A stretch of DNA of 64,000 bases from Leucosporidium creatinivorum. Its lineage: Eukaryota > Basidiomycota > Microbotryomycetes > Leucosporidiales > Leucosporidiaceae. The stretch spans positions 437,425 to 501,424 of the forward strand of contig BCKL01000002.1 in the NCBI GenBank assembly GCA_001600635.1. Reading direction: 5' to 3'. Positions 1 through 58,283 of this stretch are shown in pieces. Every line of letters starts with the position of its first letter. Positions within the stretch are counted from its first letter, which is position 1. The notes below the pieces were generated by a model. It made no database searches. It was not told where the DNA came from and was given only the letters and a program-made list of their open reading frames with translations. The position numbers and the translations under genes are program-made.

Positions 1-1445
1 ATCGACGTCCTCGGTCGCGAGCAGGCGATTGGCGAACTCGACGCCGGAATTGAGCACATCCGTCGCAGCTTCGTGTGACTTCTTGAGCGTGTACGTATAC
101 TGGTCCTTGAATGGAAGGCGTCTCCCTGAGGTTGCGCCGTGAACTTCAGCTGCGGAACCGCCTGCGAGATCTTCTTGTCCGCCTTGCGGGTTGTCGGCGC
201 CGGGAAGAACGTCCAATCACCTTTGCCAGCAGCAAGGTAGACATCAAGACGCTTGCAAGTGGCGGACCAGTACTTCAGCGCGAGGGAAGTGAGGTCGCCG
301 AGAGGTTCGGGCGTCGTTTTGCCGTTGTAGTCGAAGATGTGGAGGTCGAGAGTGACGATGGGTGAGGAGGAGAGGAGGCCGAGAACGGTGGCGATGGAGG
401 AGGCTGTCCCTTGAAGTCGGAGGTGGTGCAGAGCGGGGAACGCCGTGCTCGGGGGGTCCTCGCTGCTGTCTGTCGGCAGCGTCAGAGCGTCGTCCGCGCC
501 CATTGGCCCGAGGAGGATTACGAGGGAGGTCAAAGTGTGCGAGGAGGCCTTGACGAAGCTCCAGGTCTCCATGTACAATCGACCGCTCGGGAAGGCGAGC
601 TCCAAGCTCTCGAGTTTGAACTCGAAAGACGAGGGGTTGCAGAGGAGGCCGCCCGACTGGACATTGAGGTATTGGAGCGACAGGTGTCGGACATCCTTGA
701 GTCCTCGAAGAGCGTCTCGTGCCGATGGGAGTGAAGGATCGTCCGAGTTGAAGCGCAGGCTGAAGTCGAGGTGTTTAAGGGCGAGTTGGCGAGAGGCGCT
801 AACGCCCAGGCGAGCCGCTCCGGATTGGCTTCCACTAGCGACAGCTCTGCAACAGACCGAGTAGCTCGAACAAGTGCAGTCCTATGGAAGAGATGCTCGG
901 CGGTGGGAATCGACCCGGGGCCGAAGCCGAGGAGCGCGATGAAGGCGGAGGGCGTGAGGGTGAGACGGCGCAGATTATAGAGAAAGGGAAGGGAGCGTAG
1001 GAGCGTGACGTGATTGGTGGCTTCCAGGCTCTTGTCGTTCAGAACGACCTTGCGGACGAGCAAGGCGTAGCGAGGGAGGATGGACCACTGGAAGAGGCGG
1101 TCGCTGCAGCCTTTCGAGGAGACAGTCTATGCACGGGAGGACAGGTCAGCGTGAGAGTCAGTTATTTGGAGCGCCCAGGCTGACCTCGAAAATGTAAGCT
1201 GCTGCCACCTTGCTCCAGCTTCGGCTGACGAGGAAGAGAGCGTTCAGACTTCGGCCGTCCCAGTCTGTGGCGCCCGCCTTCGCAACTTCGAGCTGACGAG
1301 CGCGCACATTAGACGCCGTCCTATCCTTGTACCGCTTGTCCTGATCTCGACACATCCTCGCGATGACCGAGTGGAGCTCGGCGGGCAGGCTGGCGAGGGT
1401 GACCGAGCTCGAGGTGGCATCGGCGCAGGAGGTCGAGGAGGCCAT
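1..1445 (-). pseudogene. F-box-like/LRR family copy A, disrupted and cut by the window edge
   Basis: Start ATG at 1445-1443. Exon 1 codes an F-box-like N-terminus (LPAELHSVIARM, then SRSWSK...YIFE). It stops at a GT donor near 1181; the acceptor lies near 1124, the same position and phase as in the other family copies. Exon 2 carries the leucine-rich body, beginning ILPRYALLVRKVV. Two frame changes are visible, near 785 (just after LAWALA) and near 130. Beyond the second, the family C-terminal helix is still readable (ANRLLATEDVD), so only about 20 codons lie outside the window. The function is not known; the family resembles F-box adaptors of SCF ubiquitin ligases. Assembly error is an alternative to true decay. 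Confidence 0.6.
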
Positions 1446-2010
1446 TGTATGAGCGAGGTGGTCAGGGCTGGAGCGAGACGAGTGTCGAGGGAGAAGCTTC
1501 CGAGCTGGCGAGCGAGCGGTGAAGCGAGCTGACCGCGGAGGAGGGCTGTTGATGAGAGGGTCAGTAGCGCTCTCCGAGGTGGCAGGCAGGTCAGGCTCAC
1601 GGTGCTGAAGCTGAGTGAGCTCTGTGAGCAGCTGTCGAGCTATGAGGAAGGCGAGCGACGAGGAAAGAGCGACGCGACAGCAGCGAGTGGGTGAGGAGCG
1701 GGCTGTAGGGGTAGTCGAGGAGTCAGCGGTAGGCTTTGAGCAGCTCGGTACCGCTGCGTACCTGTAGCGAGCACGAGAAGCGCGAAGAGCGAGCTTCCCA
1801 GAGCGAGCGAGCGGGTTCGAGCGTCCTGGTCGAGAGCAGGAGTGATCAGCCGCGCGCTGTAGGGCGATACAGAGCAGCACAGACTCACCAGTAGCTTCTT
1901 GTTCAATCGCCTGTGCCGTCCTAGTCCAGCAGCGAAGGCGAGAGTGAGCGGGAGACGAGGTGAGCGCAGGAAAGCAAGAGGCGGGAGCGTGTCCGTCGCT
2001 GGCAAGAGGT
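1446..2010 (-). other. Spliced 5' leader of copy A (family leader repeat)
   Basis: This non-coding leader contains the family leader block: a polypyrimidine stretch with CTTGCTTTCCT, then ACTAGGACGGCACAGGCGAT, then a GTGAGTCTGTGCTGCTCTGTA donor/intron start, then GACGCTCGAACCCGCTCGCT. At least two GT-AG introns can be drawn. Equivalent blocks precede copies C, D, E and F. Reading frames are not conserved between copies, so I treat it as UTR. Confidence 0.6.
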
Positions 2011-2728
2011 GGATGCTGAGGGGTGAAAGTGGTACAGCAAAGTAATTTCAAGATAGTCGACCTTCGACTACAGAACCTGCTCAGCCATTCTCAGCCCTCC
2101 CCAAGCTGCTGCTCGGCGATCCCATCCCCCTGACCGAGCTCAGCAAGTTGCTTCCCTCCTCCTCGACTTGTCTGCGAAGAGCGTCCACGCGCGATCCATG
2201 TCCAGCAGAGCTCGCTTGACCTCGCCCTGCTTGCTGTCAAGTTCGATCAAGGAGCAGTTTGCCCCACCTCAGCTTCGCGCGTTCCAACTCGGCGCCTCTC
2301 TCCCTCCGCTCACTCGCCTGGTTCTCCCCACGTCTCGACGCCTCTCGCGTAGATCTCTCAAACTCTTCACATTTATCGCCCGAATCTCCTCCCAGGCAGC
2401 TGCTCACCCTCAGAGCCGTCCTCGAGCCTATCGACGCGTCGAGTCGGCGCCATTCCTTCATCGCCAGCCCTCAAGATAGATTGCTGAAGCTTCTGGCAGC
2501 AGCTCCGGGTGAGTTGATAGCTACTACCTCTGCTGCGATACTCTGAACTGACACGCCTGTCGTCTGTAGAGCATCGAACGACTTCCCGTCCTCGAGTGCC
2601 CCACTCTTAGCGACTTGCGAGTTACAAGGTGAGCTGTCGCCGCTTTGGCTACAGCTCAGAGTCTACGCTGACCTATACTTCACACTGCGGCTCGCTAAGA
2701 ATCGCTCCATACCCTCCTCGTCTGCAGC
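2011..2728 (+). other. Promoter and 5' leader of copy B
   Basis: This 0.7 kb stretch lies between divergent copies A and B. No protein-like ORF was recognised. Two leader introns are likely: a GTGAGT donor near 2511 with acceptor near 2570, and a GTGAGC donor near 2631 whose CTGCAG acceptor sits one base before the ATG of copy B. The shared leader block of the other copies is not evident here. Confidence 0.4.
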
Positions 2729-5328
2729 ATGTCGCCCAAGCACTCGGCCAGGCCCACCCTCTCGTCTCTCCCTCCCGAGATCAAGAGATACATCGCCGAG
2801 CAAGCCTCACTTCAAGACAAGCAGTATGCTCTTTGGAGCGAGCATACAGAATGGGACTCGGTGCAGAAGGTCGCGCCAAACTTCGGGCGAAGCCTCTCGG
2901 CGCTATCGACGGTCAGCAAGGCGTGGACGGCGGAGGCTGTGGGCGCTCAGGAGTGCTTGCGCAAACCTTTTTGGGCAGTTGGCGGGCGGCGCCGAAGCAG
3001 GTGCTCTCTCCGAGGGTCGGAGGGGGAAGAGAGCGAGGGTAGTTAAGTAGAGAAGGTGAAAGAGGTTGAGTTCCACCTAAGTACCACTACGAGTCGACGA
3101 CAACAAAGGTCGAAGATGTAGGAGAGTAGAGAAGAGGACGAGAGGTGTTCGCCGAAGCCGAGGTTCGAGAGGGACTTGTGCTCGCTGAAGGACGTCGAGG
3201 CTCGCAAGTCTTTCGCTGTAGTGCTCGAGTTGTTACTGATGAACGAGGTACTGATTGCCAAAGCTTTGAATCGAAAGAAGTATGAGAGAGTGAGGGGATG
3301 AGGAAGGTAAAGCGAAGTGCGAGTGAAGTGAGAAGTGGGGGAAGTACGGAGTGTGTTCTAAGAAAGAGAGAGAGAGCCAGCCCATTTATACTCGTCCAAA
3401 GAGACCCCTGTCCTGCTGTCCAAGCCGCTCCCACATGATCAACCGCATGCTTCACCTAAGCCGAGCCGTCCGCCGAGGCGACTCCCTTTCCGTCCCTGCG
3501 GTGCACCTTGCTCTCGCCGAAGGGGATCTGCTCCTCGTCCTTGTAGTCCTGGCCAAAGTAGTAGTCGGCGTCGAAGTTGGTGTACTCGGGGTGAACGAAA
3601 GGCGAGAGGGGAGGAGAGGACGGAGCGTAGCGAGGCTCGGTGGGCGCGAACTGAGGCGAGGCCGGGCCGTAGTGGGCGGGCGAGTAGACGGAAGTGGATC
3701 CCGACGCGTGGGGCGCAGCCGAGGGGGAAGGGAAGCCGACGGCGAGCTCGGCGGAGGAGATGGCGGCGGAGGGCTGCTCGGCGAAGGTGACGGCGGGGCG
3801 AGGGCGAGGGTCGACAGTGCTCGAGGTACTCGCGTGGTGATGAGGGTGGGTAGGGCGAGCGTCGGTGATGAAGGAGCGAGGGTCAACGGTGAGAGGAGCG
3901 CCGCGAGGGGAGAGGACGAGCGCCGAAGAGGTGGAGGAGTGGGCAAGGGGCTGCTGAGGGACTTGGTGAATAGCCGAGCTCGTCCTGACCGCCGTCAAGG
4001 CAGAACCGTTTCTCTTCAAGGTGAGCTCGACCTACTCTCTACCTCTTGCCCCGATCTGTTTGCTGACTCCTCGCACACTTCAGCTCATCGCGCCGACTCG
4101 GTCCGAGCACTTGGAGGCGCCCCTCCTTCTCGAACGCTGTGCTCGCCATGTACAAGAGGTCGACTTCCGCTGGTATGCGCAAGACGACGACGATCGGTGT
4201 AGCACCCTCTTGCCCTTCCTACCACTCTTCACCAACCTCCGCTCGCTGCTCGTCACGGGCTGGGCTCACGCGCTCATGTTCGACATGCAAGAAGAGGACG
4301 CCATGAAGGAGCTGCACCGACAGATCATCGCTACCATCGCACCGAGGATCTCTACGCTATCCTTCGTGGGAACCGGAAATGACTGGGTTGCCTCCTTCCT
4401 TCCTCAATTCGGACCAACTCTCCGCAACCTCGTCCTCCTGGGGGATCGCCACGACCTCGGGCCCGACGTTTCTCAAGCAGTCGCAGCCATGTCACAACTG
4501 GCGGCCCTCAGCATCAACTGCCCTGACAGCCCACGCATCACTTTCACCAACGAGTGGAACCGCCTCGAGTGCTCGTTCCGGCCCACCCTCGAAAGGCTTC
4601 GCCTCAACCTCAACCAACCTCATTCTGAGCTTACGTACACCAACTGGTCCTTCATCCGACATTTCTCCGAGACACTCAAGGTCCTCGACCTCACCTTCGA
4701 CGCCTTGGAGCCTTCGGACGCCCCCGCCGAACGAGCAGCCAAAGCAGTCTCCTTCCCCGCTCTGCAACATGTCATTCTGACCACACCAATCGCCGACGCT
4801 CAAGACGTTCTCTCCTTCCTCGCACAATCACCGATCCAACACCTCGAGCTCAACGTCGTCCGAGATACTCCCCTCGACTCGGCGGCCCTCGCCGAGGCGC
4901 GTCAACTACTGGAGTCGATTACCAAGGACTTCGGCACCTCGTTACATCGGCTAAGCTGGAAGTTCGTCGCTCTTCACGCACCCTACGAACGCGACCACAC
5001 CAAAACCCTTCGCCAAACTCCCTTCCCCTGCGATCCCGACTTCGCTCATCACCTCGAAGCACGCTGCACCTCTCTCGGCATCATCCTCGACCCCACCCTC
5101 CCCCTCTTCGACCCCTTCTCAGATCGCGAGATCAACGCCCAGCCGTTTGCAACCCAGGCGACGACCGAGACGGCGATGAAGGAGGATGGCGAGGCGGCGA
5201 GGAAGGTACTGAGCTTCATGGAGGGCTTGGCGGGGCGGTTGGAGAGCACTGGAGATCGGGCGGGGATGAATCAGATGATGGAGCTGCTGGGGCTTTTGCA
5301 TGCGAGGATGTTGGTGGAGCAGGATTGA
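2729..5328 (+). pseudogene. F-box-like/LRR family copy B, exon 1 interrupted by a 1.06 kb insertion
   Basis: ATG at 2729 opens an F-box-like exon (LPPEIKRYIAEQASLQDKQ, then VSKAWTAEA). At 2937 the family sequence stops. It resumes at about 4002 with the end of the same exon (EPFLFK), the normal intron (4021-4083) and a long intact exon 2 (4084-5328) ending in the family tail HARMLVEQD. The intervening 2938-4001 is foreign and carries part of another gene on the minus strand. GGC is present at both joints. A 1.06 kb GT-AG intron (donor GTGGGC, acceptor CAAG) could formally restore the frame, but it would be far longer than any other intron here, so disruption is preferred. Confidence 0.65.
2938..4001 (-). 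pseudogene. Inserted 3'-terminal fragment of an unrelated gene
   Basis: On the minus strand, 4001-3456 reads as about 180 codons without a start, ending at TAG (3458-3456). The protein is Pro/Ser-rich with a well-formed tail (DADYYFGQDYKDEEQIP, then HRRDGKG). Codon use is normal. The remaining 3455-2938 looks like its 3' flank. It begins exactly where copy B exon 1 is broken, so it is a piece of host gene moved as DNA. The parent gene is not in the window and I do not recognise the family. No transposase or long terminal repeats are visible. Confidence 0.5.
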
Positions 5329-6203
5329 GCGTGAGGTGGGCGAGGGTCGAAGGATGGACGGCAAAGTCGTTTCTTTAGTGGAGTAGGAACCTGACATCAT
5401 GTCAAGTAAAGATACATCGTCGTTTCAACACGCGATCACAAAGCGAGGGAGATATTGCTCAGCAGCATCGCGCAGGAGAGAGCTCGGCGCTAGTTCCGGC
5501 GAGTCGACAGCTCGCCCGAGCTGTGAGAGCGAGCAAATGCTTGGAGACGAGCGCACATTGCCAGCCCTCTTCCGAACACATCTTCCGCGATGGTCGAGAC
5601 AGTCTTACTGCAGGAGCCTCGCTCGCATTCAGCAGCTGGGGGAGGAGCGGCGCAAGGGGTCAGCGCCGAGCGTCCGGCTGGAGAGCTACAGGCCTCGCTA
5701 CAGAGGCTTGTGAGTCTATATTGTGATCTCACAACACCCTCTAGCCTCTTCCGACTCTTCACCAGCTGCACCCTCTTCAGCTGTCGACGCCCTCCCACCT
5801 CTTGCTTTCCTACGCTTACCTCGTTTCTCACTCGACTTCGCTGCTGAACCAGGACGACACAGGCGATTGTCGCCGAAGCTTTCGGTAAGTCTGTGCTGCT
5901 CTGTACGCTCCATAGCGCCCAGCTGATACGTCGTGCTTTCAAACAGGACGCTCGAACCCGCTCGCTCGCTCTCCGTGAAGCTCGCTCTTCGCTCGTCCCG
6001 TGCTCGCTACAGGTACGTCGGCTGTACCCCACCTTTTCGAAACTGCTGCTGACCGCCCGTCATCCCCATAGCTCCTTACTCGCCCCTCGCTGCTCCCATC
6101 TCCTTCTTCCGTCCCCTCATCCCCCAAAGCCCGCTCGCCGCTCTTCGGCTAGCGCAAGCACAGCTTCTCCTTCATCAGTCTTTTCGCCCTCTCCCTCCAC
6201 GCC
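5329..6203 (+). other. Intergenic region and spliced 5' leader of copy C
   Basis: Positions 5329-5735 hold nothing I can name. From about 5740 the family leader block appears (CACCTCTTGCTTTCCTACGC, then CAGGACGACACAGGCGATTG, then TAAGTCTGTGCTGCTCTGTA and GACGCTCGAACCCGCTCGCT). It is closely similar to the leaders of copies A and D. Introns near 5884-5946 and after 6010 can be drawn. It is non-coding, as frames differ between copies. Confidence 0.55.
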
Positions 6204-7755
6204 ATGTCTACCTCCTCCGCCGACAACGCTCCCGCTCGGCGCCCTACCTCGCTCGACGACCTGCCGAGAGAGCTGCAAGTTATCATTGCGACTTTCGTCG
6301 ACACCCAGAGCACCGACCATCTAAACCTTATCCAGGTTTATGATGACGGCGAGCACGAACTCGCGCTAGGATACAGCGGAGAGCTAGATTGGGGCGGGTG
6401 GAGCAACCTCGCTCTTCGCCTCGTGAATCGAGAGTGGACCTCGATTATGAACGGGGTCTACTTCACGGTACACTTCACATCTGCCAGACACTGCTTTACA
6501 CATACTGACATCCCCATCGACAGGTCCTCGGCACCCTACGTTGTCACCAGGAAATCTTCGCCTTCGAAGTTCGACATTGTCCGTCAATATGGTCGCTATG
6601 TCCAGCAAGTCTACTTCCAGGACGGCGACGGTGAAGAAGACGCTGTTGCCCTCCTGCTGGCCCTACACCAGTTCAGCAACCTCAAGAGCGTGAACATCGG
6701 ACAGGACACGTTCGGCTTCCTCTTCGGCGATGGCGAGGGCGACTTTCCTCTTCGGCGATGGCGAGGGCGACTTGACCGACTCGCAGATGCGCTATAGGAA
6801 CGCCATCCGTGCAGCCGCGCCCCAAGTTGAGGACCTGGCTCTTCCTTCTATCGCCTTCCAGGCGCTGTCCTGGACTTTTCCGACTTTCGCCAATCTTCGG
6901 ACCCTCTCCCTCGACCTGGGGAAAATCGTAGCCGAGCGCTCTCGCGATGCAGCGTATGCTATTGCGGATCTCACGCTCCTCCAGAGCCTGAAGCTTCGGA
7001 GCATGGACGCGGAGCACGGGAAAGCCTTCGCAGAGGTCGCCAAGGCAGGTCGGTGGCGGTCGGGCTCGTTGAAGGTCTTCGCCTTCTCGGGCTGGCGCGA
7101 GGCGTTCTCCAGCGGCATTTGGACCTTCATACAGCATTTCTCTTCCACCCTCGCTACCTTACGCATCCACATCTTCGACCTCGACATCCCGCTTCCTCCG
7201 CTCGGCGACCAGGACTCGACATCGTGCACTCGCTTCCCTCGACTTCAGGCCGTCAAGATCGTCAGCGCTCTAGTCCTAGTCCCTCCCCTACTGTCCCTCC
7301 TCAAGGATGCGCCTATCACACAGCTTCGCATCGGGCTTCTAGCCGACTCGGAGGATGCGCCGTCTCTCCTCAATCCCCCAAGTGCGGTCGAGGAGAGTAT
7401 CAAGATGCTGGTCCAGTACAAGGCGCTCCGTCTTAGCGTCATTCGCCCTCGCCATCAAGGGCTCGACTTTAATCCCGACATCATCAGCCTGCTCAGCCGT
7501 CTCACTTCTCGACACGGCATCGACCTCACCCTACTCCCTTCCTACGACGTCTTCCTCCATCGCCGGCTACGCAACGGCGACCCAGGGACTCGCCAGGAGC
7601 AGACGAACCGGCGCTGTGACGGAGTGGATGAGGTGCTGAGGCATACCCTGGCCGAGTCGGGCAGGATGCGAGCGACGGGGGATCTGGAGGGGGCCGAGTC
7701 GCTAGTGGAGGCGTTGACACCGCTGAGGGCGAGGATGCTGAGGGATAGGGATTGA
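6204..7755 (+). pseudogene. F-box-like/LRR family copy C, frame broken by a 28-bp tandem duplication
   Basis: ATG at 6204 starts an F-box-like exon (LPRELQVIIATFVD, NREWTS). The family intron follows (GTACAC donor at 6468, CTGAC branch, CGACAG at 6523), but joining these ends puts exon 2 out of frame by one base. A more distal acceptor at 6569 would keep frame. In exon 2 a 28-bp unit at 6717-6744 is repeated at 6745-6772 and shifts the frame. After it the body continues cleanly to the family tail SGRMRATGDLEGAESL and TGA at 7753-7755. With one unit removed the reading frame is continuous from 6570 to the stop. Protein role unknown. Confidence 0.6.
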
Positions 7756-8103
7756 GAGTGGTTGATGAGGAGATGAGGATGTGCACAGGGCGGGGAATGG
7801 GCGGTACCGAGCGTCGAAGAAGAGCGCCGAGGAAGCTTGAAAAAGATCGCTGTTCGCTAGTTGATTTCGCAGAGACGCGAGAGGAAAGGAAATATAAGCG
7901 AACCCGACATACTCTGCGCTAAGCGCCTCAAGCCTGCACTGGTCGACGATTGAGCTCGCTACGAGCTGCGGCGAGGTTCGGCGCACTGCCGACTCCAACT
8001 TTCGGCGGCTCGACGAATCTCCAACGCTCAGCGCTCGGCGTGACATTGTCTTGCGATGCCGGAAGGTGCGAGCGATAACAGCTTCTTCCGGCTCTCTGCA
8101 TAT
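7756..8103. other. Intergenic region between convergent 3' ends
   Basis: It separates the end of copy C (+) from the end of the dihydroorotate dehydrogenase gene (-). No coding, RNA or repeat signal was recognised. It presumably holds both 3' UTRs. Confidence 0.5.
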
Positions 8104-9420
8104 CTACAGCTTTGCCTTCAGACCGCCTGAGATCTTGGCGAAGACGTCTACGCCTTCCCTTCCCAAGGCCGATGCGCATGCCTGCATGCTCAAAACAGCT
8201 CAGCAACACTCAAGCCTAATCTCAACCGAACTCACCACTGCTGAAGCACCCGCCTGCCTGAACCTCTCGGCGCCTTTGGCATCGGCGACTCCTCCTACGC
8301 CGATGATGGAGATGGAGCGGAGTGAGGTATCCTCCGACGACTTGAGGAGATTGGAGAGACGGTAGACATTTCTGTCGAAGGGGGACGAAGAGGTTAGATC
8401 CCATCTCGCGTTCGACTGTTCAGACCTCCGAGCCTCGGCGACTCACCCCAGCGAGATCTGATGCACGGCCGCTCCCGCCAGCCCACCAAATCCACCAGGA
8501 AGAGCAAACTGCTCCTGCGGCTTCCTCTTCTGCGCCACAGCATTGCCCTCAATCTCGACAATCTGAGGCGCGAAGACGAGTCCTTGGCCGAGGGTGTTGG
8601 TCGAGCAGAGGAAGGAGATGGGGCTCTCCTTGCCGGGAGTGGAGACGGAGGAGAGCGAGGAGATGACGGAGGTGAACTGTGAATCGTAGGTGTAAGGAGG
8701 GAGCTTGATGCCGACGAGGAGGGTAGGGGAGGAGTGTGAAGCGAGCAGCTTGACGAAGGCGGTGAGCTCGCTCTCGACGTAGGCTGGTGGCGGGTGTCCG
8801 CCTGTAGGTCAAATAGTAGGCCAGCTTGAGCTTCGATCTACACTCAGCTTCAGAGAGCGTACGGAAGTTCGGGCACGAAGCGTTGAACTCGGCGCCGATG
8901 GGAGCTTCGACCTCGTCCGCAAAGGCCTGCAGAGTCGGCGAAGGAGGGTTAGCATGCTGATAGCTTACTCTGAAGAGTACCCAGCACTCACCTGCAGAAT
9001 CTTGAGCATCTGCTTCGTCTCCACGAGGGTGCCGGTGATGGAAACGACGACTTGCTTCTTCGGGGCCGTCTTGGAGAGCAGCAGTGGCCTCAACCAGTCA
9101 AGATAAACGGTTATAGCATACGGCGAGTAGCCATACGAGTTGCTAGAGGACGAGGCGTCGGGTCCAAAGAAGGCGACCTGCGTTTCGAACGTCGGGAATG
9201 AGCTGTAGGGTACTAGGGGAGCCGAAAGAGCAGCAGGACATACCTGGTGCTTGGAAGCATCATCTGCGAAACCGTTGAGCGTGCATGTGCGAGTCGTGAC
9301 AGCCGAGGTGAACGGCGAGGTGTAGAGCGATTTGAGATCCTCTGCTGAGCTAGCCCAAGGGCAAGCCGAGTTGTACACTGGGATCTCTCCCTTCTTTGGT
9401 GATGCTGGAAACAGTGGCAT
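8104..9420 (-). CDS. URA1: Class 1A-type dihydroorotate dehydrogenase (FMN)
   Basis: Exons 9420-9244, 9177-8992, 8926-8842, 8801-8447, 8371-8236, 8181-8104 give 338 aa. The enzyme oxidises dihydroorotate to orotate in pyrimidine synthesis; class 1A fungal enzymes are cytosolic and use fumarate. Visible motifs are NSACPWAS near the N-terminus, FNASCPNF, a KLPPYTYDSQF strand, GGFGGLAG, and the FMN phosphate loop IGVGGVADAKGAERF, then AFALGREGVDVF-like end ACASALGREGVDVF. An upstream in-frame ATG at 9564 would add 48 Arg-rich residues resembling a mitochondrial presequence. It lies only 44 bases after the stop of the upstream gene, so I prefer 9420. Family membership is clear; substrate is inferred from the family. 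Confidence 0.82.
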
Positions 9421-13122: not shown

Positions 13123-17687
<4,565 letters not shown>

Positions 17688-41364: not shown

Positions 41365-41800
41365 CTTCGCCTCTTGCATCTCCACCCTCTTCACTTCCCG
41401 ACGCGCTCCCACCTCTTGCTTTCCTACGCTCACCTCGTCTCTTCTCGCTTTCAACTTCGCTGCTGGACTAGGACGACACGAGCTATTGATATCGAAGCTA
41501 CTGGTGAGGCTGTACTGCTCTGTACTCCTCTATAGCCCACAGCTGACGATCCGTGACCGTTAGAAAGGACGCTCGAATCCGCTCTGCTCCTCGCTGAAAG
41601 CTCGCTGCCCGAGACTCGCGCGCTCGCTACAGGTTCGTCGACGCTCACAGTAACCTTGAACTTGTCGCTGAACTCCCGATACCGCTACAGCTTTCCCATC
41701 GCTCGCGTTCGCTGCTCTCACCTCGTCGCGTCCCTCTTCATCGCCGGCACCACATCCTCAGCTCTTTCAAACGCTCTCCCCATACGCTCTCACCGCCGCC
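41365..41800 (+). other. Spliced 5' leader of copy D (family leader repeat)
   Basis: It contains the family leader block in order: CACCTCTTGCTTTCCTACGC, ACTAGGACGACACGAGCTAT, GGTGAGGCTGTACTGCTCTG, GGACGCTCGAATCCGCTCTG. It matches the leaders of copies A and C more closely than the proteins match. Splice signals are present near 41505/41570 and 41631/41690. Non-coding. Confidence 0.6.
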
Positions 41801-43421
41801 ATGAGCTCCCCTTATACCTCCGTCTCGCCACCGTCGCTGTCAAACCTGCCACTCGAGATCAAGCGGATGATCGCTTCGCACGCTCTGCACCAGGATCAGG
41901 CGTTCAGTAAACAGAAGGAGCGCATTGGCGAGATCTAGGACGAGGACATTTATCCACCAAGGGAGGATGTCAAGGAAGGCAACAGCCTGGGCACCCTCTT
42001 TCGGCTCGACCGAGCATGGAGCGCCATCGCCGCCCCTTTCGTCTTCCGCGTGAGTCTTCTTCGAGCCTCTGACCGGATCAGCATGAGCTGACTATGCCCT
42101 GTCTACTATACAGCGCCTGGACTCACCTAACTGCACCAGCCCTCTCTTTCGGAGTGTGATCCTGCCGAAGTACGCTCAATTCGTCGAGGAGGTCGCCTTC
42201 GACATGGGAGGCGAGACGACAACAGAGGAAGAGGACGCCGCCATCGACGCCAGCGACAGGGAGCTCATGATCGCCCTGCCTTTCTTTCCCCGACTCCGCC
42301 GTCTAGAGCTCCTCGCCTATCACGTCTACACCTTCCTCTCCCTCTCCCTTTATCGTGGCGCCGACAATCGCCCTTCGCACGAGGTCCAGATTCACCGTCA
42401 AGCATTTCTCCACGTCGTTCGAAATGTCAAACAGCTCACGCTGCGTAGGTCCACCCCCGCCGTCTTCGCGTGGGTTATCGCCGCCATGCCCGCCCTCCAG
42501 CGCCTGTCCATCCGAGGTTTCCACTTTGGGGAGGGCAACGAGGACTTCAACCCGCGCACAGAGGAGGAGGACCAACGGTCATTCGAGGCTGCCGTTGCAG
42601 CTTGCGAATTCCTCGTCGAGCTGGACGTCGGCTATGAAAACTGGGGTTCCGAAGGAGCGGCATTCGGCAACAGCTGGGGGGAGCACGACTGGAAGTTCCG
42701 CTCAAGCTTGCGATCACTCAGGACCACCTTCCCTCTTGGAGAGCACCTGACGGAACCCATTTGGTCCTTCGCCGAGCACTTCGCCGACACGCTCGAGGAC
42801 CTACATCTCTCTGTGCCCTCCGACCCCGCCGAGGCGAGCGCGCTCTTCAAGCAGAAGACGCCCAAGATGGTCGACTTCTCCAAGCTCCACTCGCTCAGCT
42901 GGTCCTCTCCCTCCGCCGTCATGCTCGTCCTCCTCCAGCGCTTCGCTTCCTCCCCTCTCGTCCAGATCGACGTCGGACTCGAAAAGGACACCAAGGACAA
43001 GGAGGACGAGCTCTTCGGCGCCGCAATGACTGCCGCGCTCGACCCTCACCGGTCGACACTCAGGATAATCACCTTTTGTGGCCGTTCCGCCGAAGGGCCA
43101 GGCGCCACCCCTCGCGTCTGCACGTCCTACGAGTTCGACGATGGAACGGTTGCGACCGCAGTCATCAAAAACTCTTGGGACATCTGGACCGAACGGAGGA
43201 GGAACCGTCGGTATCTCAACCCTCAACAGGCGTGGATGACCGAGCGGCGCTGCGACGCCATCGCCGAGGTCGCCCACTCTCCTCTGAACCTGGCGGGAAG
43301 GATACGAGCGACCGGTGACGTGTATGGAGCGGAGACGCTCATGGCGGTGCGAGCCGATGAGGTCGTTGATGTTGAAGGAGCAGCTTTGAGGGACCGGCTT
43401 GGGCGAGAGCTGAGGGAGTGA
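41801..43421 (+). pseudogene. F-box-like/LRR family copy D, premature stop and frame-shifted tail
   Basis: ATG at 41801 opens LSNLPLEIKRMIASHALHQD, but codon 46 (41936-41938) is TAG inside the F-box-like exon. The sequence after it still matches the family (LFRLDRAWSAIAAPFVFR). The usual intron (42054-42113) joins exon 2 (42114-43421), which is open and leucine-rich (FFPRLRRLELL, VKQLTLRRSTPAVFAWVIAAMPALQRLSI). Near 43352, two bases present in copy F are missing, so the final 25 residues are out of the family frame. Copy D is inverted relative to copy F and shares an almost identical 3' end with it. A shorter protein from an internal Met in exon 2 cannot be excluded. Confidence 0.65.
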
Positions 43422-48246: not shown

Positions 48247-50076
48247 ATGGCAACAGCAGCTTCCACTTCAACGCAGAGGGAGGAGATCAAGGTCAGCCTA
48301 CTACAGCCTCATCTCTGTAGCTTGACAGCTCGGTCCCTAACCCAGCTTTTGCGTTCTGCTCTCGACACAGGCCAGCCTCAAGGCTCACAACGACTCGTTC
48401 GATCAACTCTTGCGCTACATCCCAGCAAAGTACTACATTCACACCGAGGAGGCTCCCAAACCCGCTGTACGTCTGCTCGCTAGTAGCTCAGCAGCAGCAA
48501 GAGCTAACGCCCTTCGCGCTTTTCGTTGCGGCCGCTCTCGTTCCTCCAGGCTCCCCTCACCAAGGCGCAAAAGAAGGCAGCCAAGAAGAAGGCCAACGAT
48601 GTCAACGTAAAGGCTGCCAAGTCCGAAGCGCTCAAGAAGGCTCGCATCGCCAGGGTTAGTCTCTCGCGCCCCAGGCCTCTTTTTTGCGTCTCCCCGCTGA
48701 CTTTCCTCGGGCTCTGAACGACTACAGTACGACCCCGACGAGCCGAGGACTATCCCTGAGATCCAGGCTGCCAAAGCCGAGGCGGACAAGAAGGGCAAGG
48801 AGCGAGCCGAGGACGATTCGGACTGGGAGGATGATTCTCAGGCCGACCAGGAGGACGACGACGAGGATGAGGAGGACGAGGACTCGGCCAATGATACCGA
48901 CTTTGCCGATTCCGACGACGAGGAGATCACCGTCCCCGTCCTGCGCAAGCATCAAGCCTCGGACGGCCCCGCGCCTACCATCACCGAGTTGCGCGAGAAG
49001 TTGCAGCAGCGGATCGCCGACATCCAAGCGCACAAGCGTGGCGCTGGAGCCGAGAGCAAGGAGGGTGAGGTCAAGAGCAAGGAGGAGCTGTTGGAGGAGA
49101 GGAGGAGGAGGGGAGTGTTGAGGGATAACAGGAGGAAGAAGAGGCGGGCCGAGAGGAGGGAGGAGAAGCCTAGGACGAGGGATAACGAGCCGAGTAATGG
49201 AAGGAAGGGTGGAGGAAAGGCTAATGCCCCGCCTAAGGAGCCGAAGGTCTGGGATGATGATCGACGAGGTGGAAGGGATGGAGGAGACGATGAGGAGGAG
49301 AGGCCGAGGAAGAAGACCAAGGTGCGTGGCTCGCGTCTCACCCTCTCTACACCACACTGAATCTATTCATACTACAGGCCGAGCCCGAGTCCGCCTTCGC
49401 CCCCGAGCCCCTCGCCGTCGTCCCTATCAAGAAGGCCGTCGCCGCTCCCAAGCCCGCCGCTCCCGACGCCTCGGCCCTCACCTTCTCCACCCTCGACTTC
49501 TCTACCTCGGCCCTCCTCTCCGCGCAAAACAACCTCGGACCCAAAGCCCTCGCCAAGCTGCAGACCAAGAAGTCCAAGCACGCCCTGCCTAAGGACCCGA
49601 ACGCCGCGTTGGAGGTGTTGGCGGCGAGGAAGGAGAGATTGGAGAAGTTGGACCCGGAGCAGAGGGAGAAGAAGGAGGAGAAGGATAGGTGGGAGAAGGT
49701 CGAGATGAAGGCGGGGGGTGAGAAGGTTAGGGATGATGAGAAGAGGTTGAAGAAGATGGCCAAGAGGCAGGAGAAGATCAAGTCGAAGAGTGCGAAGGCT
49801 TGGTACGTTCTTCATTCTCTCTCTCTCCTCTTCTCTTACCCGCACTAACCGACTACACTACGATCCAACAGGGCCGCGCGCAAGGAGACCGTCTCGTCCA
49901 ACATTTCGGCAAAGATTGAGAAGCGCAACAACAACCTCGCGGCGCGGGTCAAGCAGGCCAAGGACAAGAAGGCGGGCATCAAGGTCAAGTCGCAGAGCGT
50001 CAAAACCAAGAGCAAGTCTCATGCTGGGCGTGTCAAGACGGGCGGTGGAAGGCCTGGGTTCGAGGGAAAGAAGTAG
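48247..50076 (+). CDS. RRP14: Ribosome biogenesis protein RRP14 / SURF6
   Basis: Exons 48247-48291, 48371-48466, 48550-48654, 48728-49321, 49378-49802, 49872-50076 give 489 aa. The N-terminal RRP14 motif is present (SLKAHNDSFDQLLRYIPAKYY). An acidic domain and the basic SURF6 domain follow: LREKLQQRIADIQAHKRG, RDNRRKKRRAERREEK, KEEKDRWEKVEMKAGGEKVR, KRLKKMAKRQEKIKSKS, and the conserved end RVKTGGGRPGFEGKK. RRP14 is a nucleolar protein needed for both pre-60S and pre-40S assembly. Strong charge bias and coiled coil are as expected. Confidence 0.93.
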
Positions 50077-50624
50077 GGCGCTGTTTGGGTGGAGCAGCAG
50101 AGAGGGGAGCAGAAGGACGCTGCATTGTACTTTTTCTTTTTCACACTTTCTCATTTCTCCCCCGTCGAACTACGTTGACGAGATGCGAGAGCGGTAGAGC
50201 AGTGGTGAAAGAGATGATCGCCGAGCTCGCCCTCGCCAGGGCAGCAGCATTGAGGTTGTCGCTCGTCTTCTCCTACACCAGGAGCAGCTCGCTTCCACAT
50301 CCCTAGCGCTCACTCCCGCATCCCCCCCCCCGCGACTCTCTTCTCGCTCCCGCTCGCCCTCTCCGCTCGCTCGCCTTCTCGCCCCGAAGTGAGAAACGAA
50401 AAAAAGGCATTCGCTCGATTGTAGGTAGTTTAGTGAAGTCTCAAAAGGGCGTAAAAAAACGAAAATGTGCAAAGAAACAAAAAGGGGGATGAAATGCCCT
50501 CGCGAGCTGTGACGCTACGAGGGATTGAAAGTGAATCGCCGCCGCCGCTCTGCTCCTTCTTTTCTCGTCCACCCCACTGCTTCACCACACCACACCACAC
50601 CGCACCAAAGAGGTCGGAACCGCT
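50077..50624. other. Intergenic region between convergent RRP14 and SAR1
   Basis: This 548-bp spacer holds two 3' UTRs. A short CACAC-type run lies at about 50585-50605. No gene was recognised. Confidence 0.4.
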
Positions 50625-52052
50625 TCAGATGAAGTTGGCCAACCAGCGGAATCCTGTACACGTATCCTCGGTCAGCTCTGCTCTCTGCTCGACGGGAGGC
50701 AGAAGAAGGGAGAAGGAAGGGAGAAGGGACTGACCCTCTCCGTAGCCCTGGCGCATGACGACCGAGCACATGAAGATCTCGATGGGTCGGATGTTCTCGG
50801 TCAATGGGGTCTTGCCCTATGTGATTGTTCGGCGAGGAGGAGAGGAGCGGAGGGGGGAAGGGCGAGTAGGAAGGCGAGGGGTGTCAGCGGTCGTTCGCTC
50901 AATGAGAGGAAAGCGAGGAAAGGTTCGAGGAACGAGGGAGAAAGAGAACACCCACCTTGCCAGTGGTAGCATGCAGCCCAAGGGCATACCTCAACTCCTC
51001 CTCGCTGACCGCGCCCTGGGCATCAATCTTGTTTCCCAGCACGAGGAAGGGGACCTTGCTCAGCTCCTCGATGGAGAGAAGGGCATCGAGCTCGGCCTTG
51101 GACTCGTGGAAGCGCTCGACGTCTTGCGAGTCGACGAGGAAGACGATGCCGTCCACTTCGGGGAAGTAGTCCTTCCAGAGACGGCGGGCTGTGGGGGTGG
51201 GGGCGAGAGAGGGGGTCAGTAGGGGGGTCAGGGTGGGAGCAAGGAAGGGAGGGGAGGGGACGGAACGGACCCTGCTGGTGACCTCCGAGATCGTAGGTCG
51301 TGAACTTGACGTTGCCGATGGCGAGCTCCTCGGAGGCTGTGAGCGACGGGCGCAGAGGTGCAAGGTCAGCGTACGTTCTCGTGGTATCTGACCATTCAAG
51401 TATCCCTGGCAGCTGAATCCCGAGCCACTCCCTTAAACCACGGTTCAACAAATCCCCTGGTCTCTCATCTCGAGCTCCGAAAGGCAAAGCAAGCGAGACT
51501 CACTAGGGTGAAGAGTAGGCTGAAGGGTAGCAAGACGATCGTTCTTCAGCATGTGAAGGAGGGTCTGTTCGGGGGTTGAGATTTAACGCGGGCAGGGAGA
51601 AGCGGAGGTGAGACGCGTCAGTTGGGGTGCATCTTTCGAGACGAGCGCAAGATGCAGTAGAGTGGACAGCAAGACTGACGGTCTTTCCGGCATTGTCGAG
51701 ACCGAGGAAGAGGATCTTGGCGTTCTGTTGAGCGTGTGGAATGAGGGGCGAGAGAGGGAGAAGCGCGAGGAAGGGGGAGAACCGACGTTAGTTTCAAGTG
51801 TACTTGGAGCGGGAGCAAAGCGGGAGCAAAGCGGGAGAGGTGTAGGCGACGAAAGGGACGGAATGTAGAAGGGTACAGGATTGCTAGCTGACCTTGTTGA
51901 CGAGACCTGGGAGAGGGTGGCAAGGCAAGGCAAGGCAAGGGCGAGTATCAGCGCGTGTTCCGAGTGATGGTGATTTGTAGCTGGGTAGGCAGGAGAGGAG
52001 AGAACATACCGAAAGAAGCGAGGACGTCGAACACCCAGCGGTAGATCCACAT
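50625..52052 (-). CDS. SAR1: COPII small GTPase SAR1
   Basis: Exons 52052-52010, 51906-51893, 51724-51680, 51564-51504, 51336-51271, 51188-50956, 50816-50735, 50653-50625 give 190 aa. The amphipathic N-helix is [16 protein letters not shown]-motifs are [11 protein letters not shown], the switch I Thr in LQPTLHPTSEELA, DLGGHQQARRLW, GNKID and CSVVM. The C-terminal [13 protein letters not shown] is diagnostic for SAR1. It recruits Sec23/24 at ER exit sites. One exon is 14 bases. Confidence 0.96.
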
Positions 52053-52804
52053 GATTAGAGAAGAGAGAGAGAGAGGGAGGCTGAGAGAGCAGCGAGACGA
52101 GTCGGGACGGGAGACGAGACGAGAGAGTGGGAGAGACCACAACAGCAGCAGTGAAAGAGGTACAGAAGTCAGCGAGGGAGCCATGTACAAGGCTACAGAG
52201 CTGATCAGACTCACGAGAAGAGGGGGAAAGGGAGGTGAGGGGAAGAAAGAAGAGGAGCGCTCGAGCTGCACGGCGAGGTCGTCGAATCAATCGAATCGCT
52301 CAGACGTGGCTTGCATCCCGACTACATCTTTCGCACATCTCTTCTCGCCTTTCTGTACCCGACCAGATCAGCTACAACACCTCCCACCTGCTCAGCTACA
52401 GCCTCCAACGCTCATCGTCCGCCGTCACCACGCACCCTCGTCGCTCGTCTCTCGCTAAGCTCAGCCCTCCTCGCTCGGTGCAGCCACACTTCGCACCAAC
52501 AGTAGGTCTCTACGCTTGCTGCTCTACACCTTGGCATCACTGGGAAGCATCGTCGTCACTTGAAGGTGTAGCTCGAGCGCGACTCTCGGGTCTCAACCTC
52601 AACCTCGATTCGCTCGGGCTATAAGGGTGGGAAGTGCTGCAGGGGAATAGGTGCAAGTGGGAGGGATTCGGAGACACAGTTACGTGCTATCAGGCTAGAT
52701 TCGCTAGCCTACAAAGCCACAACCAAGGTCGACCCCACTGTCGCTCTCGACTCGGTCGACGTGCGCAGATCTGTAGCTAACCAGGCTCTCTCCGATTGCT
52801 CGCA
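52053..52804. promoter_or_regulatory. Divergent promoter region SAR1 / VMA8, with VMA8 5' UTR and first intron
   Basis: It is 752 bp long. The right part must contain the 5' UTR exon of VMA8 that ends in A, and the first intron, whose CTAAC branch (near 52775) and CGCAG acceptor (52801-52805) are visible. One possible donor is GTTACG near 52680. No other gene was recognised. Confidence 0.45.
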
Positions 52805-52805
52805 G

Positions 52806-54143
52806 TGTCTGGAGCCGGACCCAGGGAGAATGTCTGTGAGTGCTCGCCTTTCCCCCTTCGCTCGTCTCGCTGCCGACGACGAACCGCCCCACTAACGCTC
52901 CTTCGCCCGCCCTAACAGTCCCTACGCGGATGAACCTCACCGTCACCAAGACCCGTCTCAAGGTATCCTATCGCGCATCCACCAGCCTCGTTCCGCTCCC
53001 ATCTCTCCAGCCTCGCCAGCGCCGAAGCCCCCACTCACCTCTCCCTCTCCTCCTCTCCTCCCACCACAGGGCGCGCAAACCGGCCACTCCCTCCTCAAAA
53101 AGAAGTCCGACGCTCTGAACAAACGTTTCCGCACAATCCTGGGCAAGATCGACGAAGCCAAACGCAAGATGGGCCGAGTGATGCAGCTCGCGGCCTTCTC
53201 TCTCGCCGAAGTGACCTACGCTACGGGCGATATCTCGTATAGCATTCAGGAGAGTATTACCGAGGCCACTTTTAGGGTGCAGACCAAGCAGGAGAACGTT
53301 AGTGGTGTCATTTTGCCTACGTTTGAGCCGTTGATGAGTAAGGCCGAGGGGGGGAATGGAGGTGAGTTGCGGTCGGTTTCGCTTCTCCATGTACGGTGAG
53401 GTGGACCAGCAGAAGCTGATGTACTCCCTATCCGACCGACAGGCTTCGGATTGACGGGACTTGGTCGAGGAGGACAGCAGATCACCAAATGCCGAGAGAC
53501 GTTCGCCAAAGCGGTAGAGACGCTCGTCGAGCTCGCTTCACTGCAGGTGCGTTCTCCTCCCCTAGCACTTTCTTCTACCCTCGCTGACCCTCTTCCCTAC
53601 TCCTCTCCCCACTCGCGCTCGCTTCCCTCGCACTCAGACCGCCTTCGTCATCCTCGACGAGGTGATCAAGATGACCAACCGCCGTGTCAACGCCCTGGAG
53701 CACGTCGTGATCCCTCGTCTGGAGAACACGATCGGGTACATCAACTCCGAGTGCGTCTCTGTTCTGTTCCCGCTCCCCTCTCCTCGCTCCCCCTTCTCGC
53801 TCTGCTCCTTCCCTCGGTGCTGACCAGCGATTGTGATGGAACAGGCTCGACGAGATGGACCGAGAAGAATTCTTCCGTCTCAAGAAGGTGCAGAGTAAGA
53901 AGAAGAGGGACACTGCGGAGAGGGACTTGGAGGCCAAGAAGAAGAGGGAGGCGGCTGAGGCGGAGGGCTTGGCGGAGGAGGAGGATGAGGGCACGGGAGA
54001 GAATCTGTTGGCGGAGAAGGACGAGGATGGTGAGTCCGCGCCATTGATTCATCGAGAGGCTGGCGAGGAGGAGAGGGGAGGGGAGAGATGGAGGAGGGGA
54101 GCGCCGAGCTGACCTTTCTTGTCGTTTCGCAGTCATCTTCTGA
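52806..54143 (+). CDS. VMA8: V-type H+-ATPase subunit D, start codon split by an intron
   Basis: Exons 52806-52835, 52919-52962, 53070-53361, 53443-53546, 53638-53750, 53845-54029, 54133-54143 give 779 bases; with one A from an upstream UTR exon this is 780, exactly 260 codons. The product then begins MSGAGPRENVFPTRMNLTVTK and continues KGAQTGHSLLKKKSDAL, the family start. Without that A there is no in-frame ATG before the conserved ENVFPTRM. Later blocks are MQLAAFSLAEVTYA, RVNALEHVVIPRLENTI and YINSELDEMDREEFFRLKKVQ. Subunit D forms the central rotor shaft of V1. The position of the upstream exon was not fixed. Confidence 0.88.
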
Positions 54144-54332
54144 GCGACCAGACGAGCGAGGAAGTACAGTGTGTTCATGTTATGCCGTTCTCGATTACCA
54201 TACTCCCTCAGACCTCTGCGAGCCGCTCGTAATGAGCTCGTTCGGTAGCCAGCTGTCGACTCGCCCTCCTCGCCCCTCATCTCCCTGTTCCCCGCTCAAA
54301 GTCTCTCACTTGCAAACCCCTGCTCCTACGCA

Positions 54333-55830
54333 CTAGTCCCTCATCTTCATCATGCTCTCCTTGAGCGGCTTCAAAGCCTCGAGAAGCCTCTCCATGCCTA
54401 CAACGTCCTGCGTCGTCTCGAGTCCCTCCGCCTGCACCGCGCCGAACCGCAGTACCTCCTCTATATCATGTCGGCTCTTTCGAAGCTTCAGAGAGTCGTC
54501 CAGCTCAACAGCCTCGGAAAGACGGCCGTGATGAAAGACGTCGTAGGTCGGTCCGAGGGTGAGGGTAATGTTGCGCGCCGCGGCGAGGGAGATGAGTGTC
54601 GGAGAGATGGCGTGGAGAGTGCGGATGTTACGGATGGGTCGGTAATTGAGGTGTACGGTGCGCAGATGGATAGGGAACAGTTGGAGGATGGCTTCGAGAA
54701 CAGCGGGCGTAGGGGGTTCGGCGGGATAGTCGGTGATGCCGACCGCCAGCTCAATATGGCGAATGGGCGACGTCGAGAAGAGTGCGAGGAGTGGGATGAT
54801 GTCGACGGACGCGTCGCGGCTATCCACCCTAAGGCGATGAAGACGAGCGAAGGTGGGAGGTGTCGCCTCGGTCTTGGTGTCGTCGGCGAGGTCGTCCAAA
54901 AGGCCATCCCAGCCCACACGTAGCGTGAGACACTCGAGGTTGTCTTTGAAACTTTGAATAAATCGCCAAGCGTCTGTTCCGAAGCCGTCGGGGCGGAGCA
55001 CAAGACTCCGCAAGCCTTTCGGCCACGACAACGCCCCCTCAGGCTCCATCACGAACGCTTCCAACAGCGGCTCCATTTCCTCGGCCAACGACAGATGCTT
55101 CAGTTTGTTACACCTAGCCAACGCATGCAGCACTGCGCTGTCTTCGGAGGGCAGCGGGTCGCTCGGTCCCGCCAGCATCGTCAACTCGAATCGGCGTAGG
55201 TTGGTAAACATGGGGAGCATCCACGCAAGGGCGTCCGGGGAAGGCCATTCGAGACGGAGACTGGTGACCGAATGTGCTACGTCGTGCAGCGCATCTCTGT
55301 ACGTTGCCTGGGGCGCGGTAGGCTCGCCTTCGGTGTTGAAGAGGTGCAGGCCAGCGGAGTAGGCGAAGGTGACATGCTCGAGGTTGACAAAGTAGGGGAG
55401 GGCGCGGAGGAGTGATGTCCAGTCCTCGCCGATTTGCTGGCCCTGGCGGAAAATCGCCCTCTTAACGAAACGGCCGAACTTGGGGGCGATGCGAAAGGCG
55501 AAGACGTCCTTGGCGCAGCCATCGGAGGCCATGGTCTGTGGTGGAATACAGCAGTAAGTTGTCTGCTCGTCTCTGCACACGGGTAACACACACCTCAAAG
55601 ATGAAGGGCATGACAGCCGACCTCCACGCTCGGTCGACAAGCGCTAACGCTGGTGCGCTCCTGCCTTCTCCCTCAGTCTCTCCCAAAGCCGTGAGGGTTA
55701 GGCATACCCGCTGCTTGAAGGCTAGATCCTGATCCTGCGCCATACGAGCGATGATGGCTTTCAGCTCGTGAGGGAGATCGGCGAGGGTGCGCCGAGGAGG
55801 AGGGGGAGCATCTTGCTGGTCGGGAGCCAT
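54333..55830 (-). CDS. F-box-like/LRR family copy E, the only intact copy
   Basis: Exons 55830-55594 and 55535-54333 give 479 aa with no break. Exon 1 codes the F-box-like motif LADLPHELKAIIARMAQDQD and VDRAWRSAVMPFIFE. Exon 2 codes irregular leucine-rich segments (LPYFVNLEHVTFAY, LAWMLPMFTNLRRFELTML, LKHLSLAEEM, LRSLVLRPDGFG, NLECLTLRVGW). It ends in the family C-terminal helix GMERLLEALKPLKESMMKMRD. The layout suggests an SCF-type substrate adaptor, but the F-box is weak and this is inference. It is tandem to copy F, and its leader begins right after the 3' flank of F. The coding sequence is well diverged from the other copies. Confidence 0.7.
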
Positions 55831-56284
55831 CTCGCGAGGAGCCGGTAGAGCGATGGAGTGGTCAAGGGGTAGTGCAGGGTAGCGGCGAAGGAGGTAGGCG
55901 AGCCTGGAGGGAGCAAAGGGTCACGCGACGAGGTGGGCGCAGCGAGCAGGCGAGGAGGGTCCTGTAGGGACAAGGCAAGGTCAGCGTGAGTTGTAGAGCT
56001 ATAAAGAGTCTCCCACGCACCAGCAGCGAGTTAAAGAGCGCGAAGGTCGAGCTTCTGGAAGAGGAAGCGAGCAGAGTCGAGTGTCCTGCTTGGAGGTCGA
56101 GGACGCGTTAGATGGGGACTGCAGGAGGGTGCAGAGCAGCACAGACTCACCAACAGCTTTAATACCAATTGCCTGTGTTGTCCTGGTCCAGTAGCGAAGT
56201 CGAAGCGGGAAACGAGGTGAGCGCAGGAGAGCAAGAAGTGGGAGCGTATCGAGAGCTGGAGAGGGTGCAGCTCGGCGAGGGCGA
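55831..56284 (-). other. Spliced 5' leader of copy E (family leader repeat)
   Basis: The leader block is present in order on the minus strand: CACTTCTTGCTCTCCTGCGC, CCAGGACAACACAGGCAATT, GGTGAGTCTGTGCTGCTCTG, then AGCAGGACACTCGACTCTGC. Two leader introns can be drawn. Non-coding. Confidence 0.55.
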
Positions 56285-56870
56285 ACATGGCTACAGGACA
56301 TTGTGAGAGCGTAAATTGGACTTCCAGCCCTCTCCAACGCTCTCTACAGCTCTCCAGCCTTCCGCTCGGCGCTGCCCCCGTCTCGCACCTCTCCTCAGCG
56401 CCGAAGTGAAACTTAGCGCCGAGCCGAGTTCGCGAGAGCAGCAACGATTGCAAGAAGGTAGTGTCGGACGCGATCCACCAAGCTGGAGCTAGCTCTTGCG
56501 GGTAGCTACGCCTCAGCTCAGTGAAAGCTAACGCCGAGCTCGCTCTGCTTAGCCTTTTCGAGCGACTTCGCGAGCATTGGACCGAGCTGAACAAGAATCA
56601 TAAATACATCGCATCTCGTGACCCCTCCCACTTCACGGCCTAGACAACTACAATCACTCCCTCAGCTCTCGCCCGAGCCCGTCCCTCAAAGCTGCTCCTT
56701 CAACATCAACGACCTCATCGGCTCCAGCACCGCCATGAGCGTCTCCACTCCATACACGTCACCGGTCGCTCGTATCCTTCCCGCCAGGTTCAGAGCAAAG
56801 TGGGCGACCTCGGCGATGGCGTCGCAGCGCCGCTCGGTCATCCAAGCTTGTTGAGGGCTGAGACGTCGGC
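56285..56870 (-). repeat. Arm 2 of the near-identical inverted repeat (with 43225-43795)
   Basis: It holds the 3' end of copy F and its downstream flank, nearly identical to the 3' end and flank of copy D in inverted orientation. The similarity stops at the start of the copy E leader, where copy D instead runs into the peptidase fragment. Confidence 0.7.
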
Positions 56871-58283
56871 GACTTGTTCCTCGCTGAGTCCAGATGTCCC
56901 AAGCCTCGTTGATAGTGGCGATGATACATGTACCGTCGTCGAAGTTGTAGGGTTCGTGGAAGGGAAAGACGCCGGGCCTTTCGACGGTGTCGTGGGACTG
57001 CCTCCGAATGCTAATGGCGCGGAGTGTTGAGCGGTAGGGGTACAGCACAGAGCGCAATGTGTCGTAGTCCTCGACGGCGTCCGGCTTGTCCTCATCTTTG
57101 TCGACCCAGGCATCGACATCGCGGAGAGGTGAGGAGGAGAAGCGGCGAAGGTAAATGGGAATAAGGGCGAAGGTGGAGGACCAGCTGAGAGATCGAAGTA
57201 GGGGGAATCCGACCCTTCGACATGCGGGCAGCTTGCTCTGCAGCAGCACCTCGGCGTTGGCGGGCTCGGACAGCGCCGGGAGACTGATACTCTCGAGCGT
57301 GGCGGCGAAGTGTTGCGCGAAGGTCCACAGTGCCTCATCCAATCCTGACTCCCGCCCACGATCGACGCTTTACGAGCGCAGGGTCCGGCGACACAACCAG
57401 TCGTGGTCTTGCCAGCTCTTGCCGAAGCCGATGCCGTCAGGGGCCTGCCTCGAGTTGTCGACGTCGAAGATGGTGAGGGCAACGAGGTTTGGTAGTCCGG
57501 CGATAGACGACTCAATCGAGCGACGATCCTCCTCCAGGCTGCGTGGATTCCTCGGGTTGATCTGGTCTTCGTGCAGAAAGCCAGAGATGGAGAGGCGCTC
57601 CAGCGCGGGAGCGGACGCGAGAAGCCAGGCCAGTTGCGGCGCTGTGAATTCGTTCAGATGCAGCTCCTTGACATTGCGTACGGCGTAGCGAAACGCCGCG
57701 CGGCGGTTCAAGGTGTCGGCGCAGGTCGTGTCCTCGTCTCCGTCGAGAAGTGGGAGCCCGAGGAGAGGCGCCATATCAAGGCTATCCAGCTCGACAAGTC
57801 GAAGGCGAGGGAAGAGGGGCAGGGAGATCATGAGATCTTTGTTGGCGTTTGAGTCTTCCTCTTCGTCGTCACGGCCGAAATCGACTTCCTCCACACAGCC
57901 AGCGTACTTCGGCAAGATGACACCTCGAAAGAATGTGTTGCTGCACTTGTGCGAGTCGAGACGCTGTTGGACGGTCTATGTCAGCTCTCACGCCTGTTTT
58001 GAGACTCGCATAGCGCGTTCAAGCTCACACGGAAGACCAGAGGGGCGGCGATGGCGTTCCACGCTCAGTTGAGAAGGAAGAGGGCGTTCAAGCTGTGGCC
58101 TTCCCTGTGCAACCGCACCTTGCTAAAGAGGCCAGAGGCGCGAGGAGGTTCCCAGCCCGACTGCTTCCGTTGGTGTTCGATGTCCTGCTTTGCAGCATGC
58201 GAGACGATCGTCCGCTTGATCTCGGGCGGAAGCTGGGCGAGGAGCGAGGTCGGTGAGGGAGGGGGACTCTGGGTAGCGCTCAT
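56686..58283 (-). pseudogene. F-box-like/LRR family copy F, two in-frame stops
   Basis: ATG at 58283 opens LAQLPPEIKRTIVSHAAKQD. Within exon 1 the conserved Arg codon of the RAW motif (CGA in copy D) is TGA here. The intron is 58028-57964. Exon 2 (57963-56686) matches the family (VILPKYAGCVEEVDF, LAWLLASAPALERLSISGF) but has TAA at 57369-57367, in a short stretch unlike copy D. The rest is open to the family tail AGRIRATGDVYGVETL and TGA at 56688-56686. It is the closest relative of copy D. Confidence 0.7.

Follow-up and report, generated by a model that had tools for sequence, protein, structure and literature searches.

The DNA analysed here is a stretch of 64,000 nucleotides from Leucosporidium creatinivorum (hereafter the window; C2:437425-501424, C2 being contig BCKL01000002.1 in a genome of 27.7 Mb and 63 contigs). 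It carries six copies, A to F, of a gene family with an F-box-like first exon and a leucine-rich repeat (LRR) second exon, and is part of a larger cluster in which most copies are preceded by a shared 5' leader. An earlier note on this DNA had claimed six copies with a common gene plan; all six exist, with the intron at one place and in phase 0 in A, C, D, E and F, but the family does not end at six, as C2:319-581 kb (∼262 kb) holds at least 22 copies (all copy counts are lower bounds; copies outside the window are named by K and their kilobase position on C2). With exon 2 of E as query, 24 of 31 matches fell in the interval 318-581 kb of C2, and with exon 2 of D 19 of 23, while the remaining matches of both queries were weaker and lay on contigs C17, C10, C27, C1 and C16. 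These likenesses are beyond chance, the lowest E-values against other copies being 1e-75 for E and 2.5e-99 for D. A complete two-exon open frame, read from open frames and splice signals, is present in 13 of the 22 copies, where exon 1 measures 79-93 codons, the phase-0 intron 54-64 nt and exon 2 394-425 codons; the other nine are disrupted.

The leader, ∼230 bp long, occurs in 20 of the 22 copies (it is absent from B and K557), in sense direction and starting 396-576 bp 5' of the ATG (for K342, the distance was taken from its second Met). It was found by self-comparison, as a likeness upstream of the ATG in a stretch that codes no protein; a coding leader is ruled out by gaps between copies that are not multiples of three. 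Mean identity is 75% in the leader versus 29% for the exon 2 proteins. Scanned in windows of 30 columns, the 13 open copies reach a mean pair identity of 0.73-0.77 in the leader, and every window of exon 1 (≤0.66) and exon 2 (≤0.71) lies below that peak. When the leader of D was used as query, 17 of the 18 genome hits were inside the cluster and the remaining one was partial. Of note, there is an extra leader at C2:372369-372550, behind which the family profile found no gene. Donor-, branch-point- and acceptor-like signals within the leader suggest that it may be part of a 5' untranslated region (UTR) with two introns. Besides, ATG is scarce: the leaders contain 5 in 4600 nt versus 16 CAT (composition predicts 42), the stretch from leader to start codon 18 versus 49 (32 expected) and the 230 bp upstream of the leader 34 versus 36 (56 expected). 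This scarcity fits a transcribed 5' UTR, with the reservation that the copies are related and so not independent. A folded RNA in the leader was unsupported (consensus -15.2 kcal/mol, covariation term -0.44, two-sided changes in 5 of 32 pairs), and no Rfam match was found in the window.

Across the 20 copies that carry it, leader distances were uncorrelated with exon 2 distances (rho 0.118, p 0.17), whereas exon 1 distances did correlate with the latter (rho 0.589, p 0.001). The pattern persisted without K376, K428 and K318 (0.122 for leader and exon 2, 0.559 for the two exons) and among the 12 open copies with a leader (0.094 and 0.602); within exon 2, the first 88 columns correlated with the remainder at 0.60. 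Judged from these distances, the leader has had another history than the genes that follow it. Individual copies display the same mismatch. In F, the leader is closest to those of K577 (86%) and E (79%), but the exons to those of D and K365; K318 and K376, which belong to different protein clades, share 87% identity over 360 bp of the leader region, and K376 and K399 the same over 364 bp. K376 and K428, whose leaders are 71% identical, agree, when compared in 60-bp steps, at 93-100% (98-100% in most) between a point inside exon 1 and ∼90 bp beyond the stop, a likeness that looks like a conversion tract.

Traces of the leader are also found in other parts of the genome. A 27-letter core pattern, allowing up to three mismatches, matched at 31 places (19 in the cluster and 12 outside), and a second version of the core at 39, with no match for the reversed control in either case; the total outside the cluster thereby rose to 23. 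Seven of these 23 hits (C22:38019, 121857, 123811 and 129695; C5:28762; C9:728203; C12:701834) sit 132-686 bp upstream of a same-strand F-box hit, where ∼0.07 were expected (P 4e-13; 160 F-box hits, some of them below cut-off, entered the test). Four of the seven lie on C22 and are not independent, so that the signal comes from four contigs; for the other 16 of the 23, the kilobase downstream contains no listed F-box. At C22:38019, the downstream gene is F-box/LRR-like by eye and the likeness to the leader is limited to the first ∼40-80 bp, while at C22:129695 the core alone is clear.

Regarding the encoded proteins, exon 1 yielded F-box-like_2 (E 0.021-0.062) and F-box (E 0.24) hits, all below the Pfam cut-off. 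The model of exon 2 of E alternates strands and helices and ends in a C-terminal helical hairpin of partly low confidence; the product of this exon is thus predicted to form an LRR arc, as in FBXL proteins. The best solved fold matches of exon 2 include FBXL2, FBXL17, D3 and Skp2, beside other LRR proteins, and F-box/LRR rows head both fold lists (Foldseek and VIA), which lends support to the F-box-like/LRR identity proposed in the earlier note. The genome has one SKP1 place, three main cullin places and 150 scored F-box-like hits, 137 of them above cut-off. Such hits are clustered genome-wide, as 56 of 132 have a neighbour hit within 20 kb and nine groups comprise three or more.

The window copies (Table 1) were read in three frames and aligned to a profile of the 13 open copies, by a procedure that tolerates introns, frame changes and stops. 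In this splice-aware alignment an intron was cheaper than a frame change; lesions were required even so, and the letters were also inspected. Introns as the source of the lesions in A, C, D and F are therefore rejected, because the alignment could place them more cheaply and did not. Intron length is 56-65 nt in these four copies, while B retains the 3' end of exon 1 followed by an intron of 63 nt and by exon 2. Every lesion previously claimed for A, B, C, D and F was found, together with a further frame change in C, and E is indeed the sole open copy within the window. Several calls were treated as alignment artefacts and left uncounted: in B, where a single frame stays open through exon 2, the extra introns and a frame change; frame changes around the stop in exon 1 of D, which one frame spans apart from that stop; in F, a pair of small frame changes of opposite sign; and an extra intron in K335. 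The first part of exon 1 of B scored 113 against the exon 1 profile versus 33-47 for 12 control pieces. The insert behind it is a repeat that also occurs at C44:64653-65684, C58:1-919 and C24:93867-94846, with 92-98% identity between places (one genome match, at a contig start, spans 920 of its 1041 bases); it is dispersed and probably arrived recently.

Table 1. Features of the window, with positions counted from its first nucleotide.
Feature	Position	Strand	Structure and lesions
Copy A	1..1445	-	exon 1 1445-1185, intron 1184-1127, exon 2 from 1126, ending outside the window at C2:437362; two frame changes, near 775 and near 101
Leader of A	1761..1990	-	
Copy B, first part of F-box-like exon 1	2729..2938	+	start codon (ATG) at 2729, identified by eye
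Insert in exon 1 of B	2938..3995	not assigned	ends approximate, ∼1.06 kb
Copy B, remainder	3995..5328	+	exon 1 end to 4020, intron 4021-4083, exon 2 4084-5328
Leader of C	5789..6013	+	
Copy C	6204..7755	+	exon 1 6204-6467, intron 6468-6523, exon 2 from 6524; 28-bp tandem duplication 6720-6775, frame change near 6566
Piece of Na,K/H,K-type P-type ATPase gene	15958..16557	-	
Leader of D	41403..41633	+	
Copy D	41801..43421	+	exon 1 41801-42049, intron 42050-42113, exon 2 42114-43421; TAG at 41936-41938 (exon 1), frame change near 43350 (exon 2)
Copy E, open	54333..55830	-	exon 1 55830-55594, intron 55593-55536, exon 2 55535-54333
Leader of E	56020..56247	-	
Copy F	56686..58283	-	exon 1 58283-58029, intron 58028-57964, exon 2 57963-56686; TGA at 58067-58065 (exon 1), TAA at 57372-57370 (exon 2)
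Leader of F	58466..58694	-	

Decay is less general than the window alone had led the earlier note to state. One of six copies is open in the window versus 12 of 16 elsewhere in the cluster (Fisher p 0.023, the split being the window boundary, which was set beforehand and not chosen by us), so that the "mass decay" was a local impression, while the local expansion stands. Besides A, B, C, D and F, the disrupted set comprises K335, K348, K365 and K577, of which K335 and K577 were counted on one frame change apiece. Open and disrupted paralogs thus coexist in one local cluster, one of the latter broken by the repeat insert, and this supports the proposed birth-and-death by local duplication. The diversifying selection suggested alongside it was not demonstrated. 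For exon 2, five older pairs, with dS of 1.0-1.4, had NG86 ratios of nonsynonymous to synonymous divergence (dN/dS) of 0.33-0.48, and K376/K428 had 0.66; for exon 1, the ratios were 0.14-0.51 in five pairs and 1.43, on ∼8 changes, in K376/K428. The open copies look to be under constraint, and site tests for selection would be unsafe because of the signs of exchange between copies.

Other features of the locus deserve brief mention. Two places show the same tandem order, with a D-type copy first and an E-type copy next, namely 54333-58283 of the window (F, E) and C2:556776-560733 (K557, K559; K557 was placed in the D group by search scores), which suggests a block duplication. The cluster is interspersed with other genes, since the P-type ATPase piece sits between copies. 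In a first look at sequence quality in single-copy genes, this piece aligned unbroken to PDB chains over 163 residues. The G+C content of the window is 0.58-0.61 in 4-kb steps. The window has four Ns, at C2:449318-449322, and none inside its copies; outside, seven single Ns fall within K376 (C2:376939-377029), and N runs lie upstream of K376 (374998-375424) and K318 (321007-321560).

We consider it fairly probable that these genes form a paralogous cluster of at least 22 F-box-like/LRR genes, most likely substrate adaptors of SKP1-cullin-F-box (SCF) ligases, in birth-and-death with exchange of leaders; our confidence goes no higher because both F-box and other LRR proteins turn up in the fold lists. 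In this reading, the F-box-like exon at the N-terminus would bind SKP1, while the LRR arc encoded by exon 2 would capture a substrate. The cluster would gain copies by local duplication and lose them through frame changes, stops and an insertion, while copies would swap pieces chiefly at the shared 5' leader, which resembles a spliced 5' UTR and would be transcribed and spliced; ectopic gene conversion would be the route. More tentatively, the leader may act as an exchangeable regulatory cassette, that is, a spliced 5' UTR module, its core common to F-box genes of other clusters, which ectopic conversion would move independently of the coding part, keeping a fast-changing adaptor repertoire under one control.

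Several results weigh against the proposed adaptor cluster with leader exchange, and they touch both the proteins and the leader. Pfam scans of 9 and of 7 pieces gave no F-box or LRR match above cut-off, the model of exon 1 is of poor quality (predicted local distance difference test 62, predicted template modelling score 0.32), and a PDB profile search returned nothing significant (TIR1 at E 0.045). The Foldseek template modelling scores by query are low (0.20-0.38 for ranks 1-6, root-mean-square deviation 8.6-12), NLRP proteins are intermixed in that list, and among the families on the VIA list RanGAP (16.2) and NLRP3 (15.8) are level with the FBXL rows. The proteins could hence be LRR proteins of another kind, with an exon 1 that is no working F-box, as the fold of non-F-box LRR proteins matches about equally well. 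Yet exon 1 gives weak but recurrent F-box-like hits, F-box/LRR proteins lead both fold lists and the genome is rich in F-box-like hits, and we deem this alternative unlikely. Still less likely, to our mind, is that errors of sequencing or assembly in a repeated region account for most of the lesions, with the majority of copies open in the living organism. The Ns in or near several copies would agree with such errors, as would the dependence of K335 and K577 on one frame change each and of A on two; however, the window copies are free of Ns, the duplication in C, the repeat in B and the stops in D and F are atypical of single-base indel errors, and 13 copies with ∼19 kb of coding sequence are lesion-free (though copies were sorted by that very feature).

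As for the leader, the Ns of K376 (the upstream run and the seven inside) mean that its tract shared with K428 is possibly an assembly fault, and synonymous identity did not differ between exon 1 (0.384) and exon 2 (0.385; p 0.98, 63 of 66 pairs). This equality leaves a general 5' homogenisation of the coding part unsupported; within clades, exon 1 had the higher synonymous identity in 13 of 14 pairs, each with few sites and the pairs not independent. The most serious contender, which we hold to be a real possibility if not the probable one, is that the leader is kept by selection alone and inherited with its gene, the weak correlation being the noise of a short constrained sequence. The undifferentiated synonymous identity and the scarcity of ATG suit it, as does the core in front of other F-box genes, which is expected of a needed element. 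On the other hand, exon 1, similar in length to the leader, does track exon 2, as the first 88 columns of exon 2 track the rest, and the leaders of F and of K318, K376 and K399 cross protein clades. A piece of a mobile element that landed before these genes could account for the leader without a gene found behind it and for the 16 outside core hits lacking a listed F-box; this seems very improbable in light of the sense orientation and the distance of 396-576 bp to the ATG in 20 of the 22 copies, and of the near confinement of the D leader hits to the cluster.

Compared with known systems, the family resembles the FBXL adaptors (FBXL2, FBXL17, Skp2, D3, COI1 and TIR1), which are among its best fold matches, in that an N-terminal F-box-like segment precedes an LRR arc. 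It differs from them in its ∼10-16% identity in fold alignments, in the absence of a Pfam hit above cut-off, in the intron that separates the two segments and in the modelled C-terminal helical hairpin. Among the titles and abstract openings listed in a literature search, none dealt with this family or with a leader common to F-box genes. Among fungi, Microbotryum lychnidis-dioicae is reported, in the part of the source used here, to be depleted in F-box domains (PMC4469406). Mushroom-forming fungi offer a large F-box set comparable to the present one, Flammulina having 210 F-box genes; the sections of that paper drawn upon describe no clusters, lesions or leaders (PMC7567395). At least 137 Pfam-visible F-box-like hits and one SKP1 place, next to 22 or more clustered copies that lack any such hit, suggest that profile-based F-box counts can underestimate. 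In Caenorhabditis, large lineage-specific F-box families are likewise many-membered and locally clustered, with many pseudogenes in C. elegans; unlike in the present cluster, a shared leader goes unmentioned in the portions of that account cited here (PMC5041008). The probable F-box/LRR birth-and-death cluster is largely ordinary, larger and healthier than the window implies. Its unusual part is the leader, which, being better conserved than the proteins and having its own history, would provide a handle on the regulation of the repertoire and on sequence exchange among its members.

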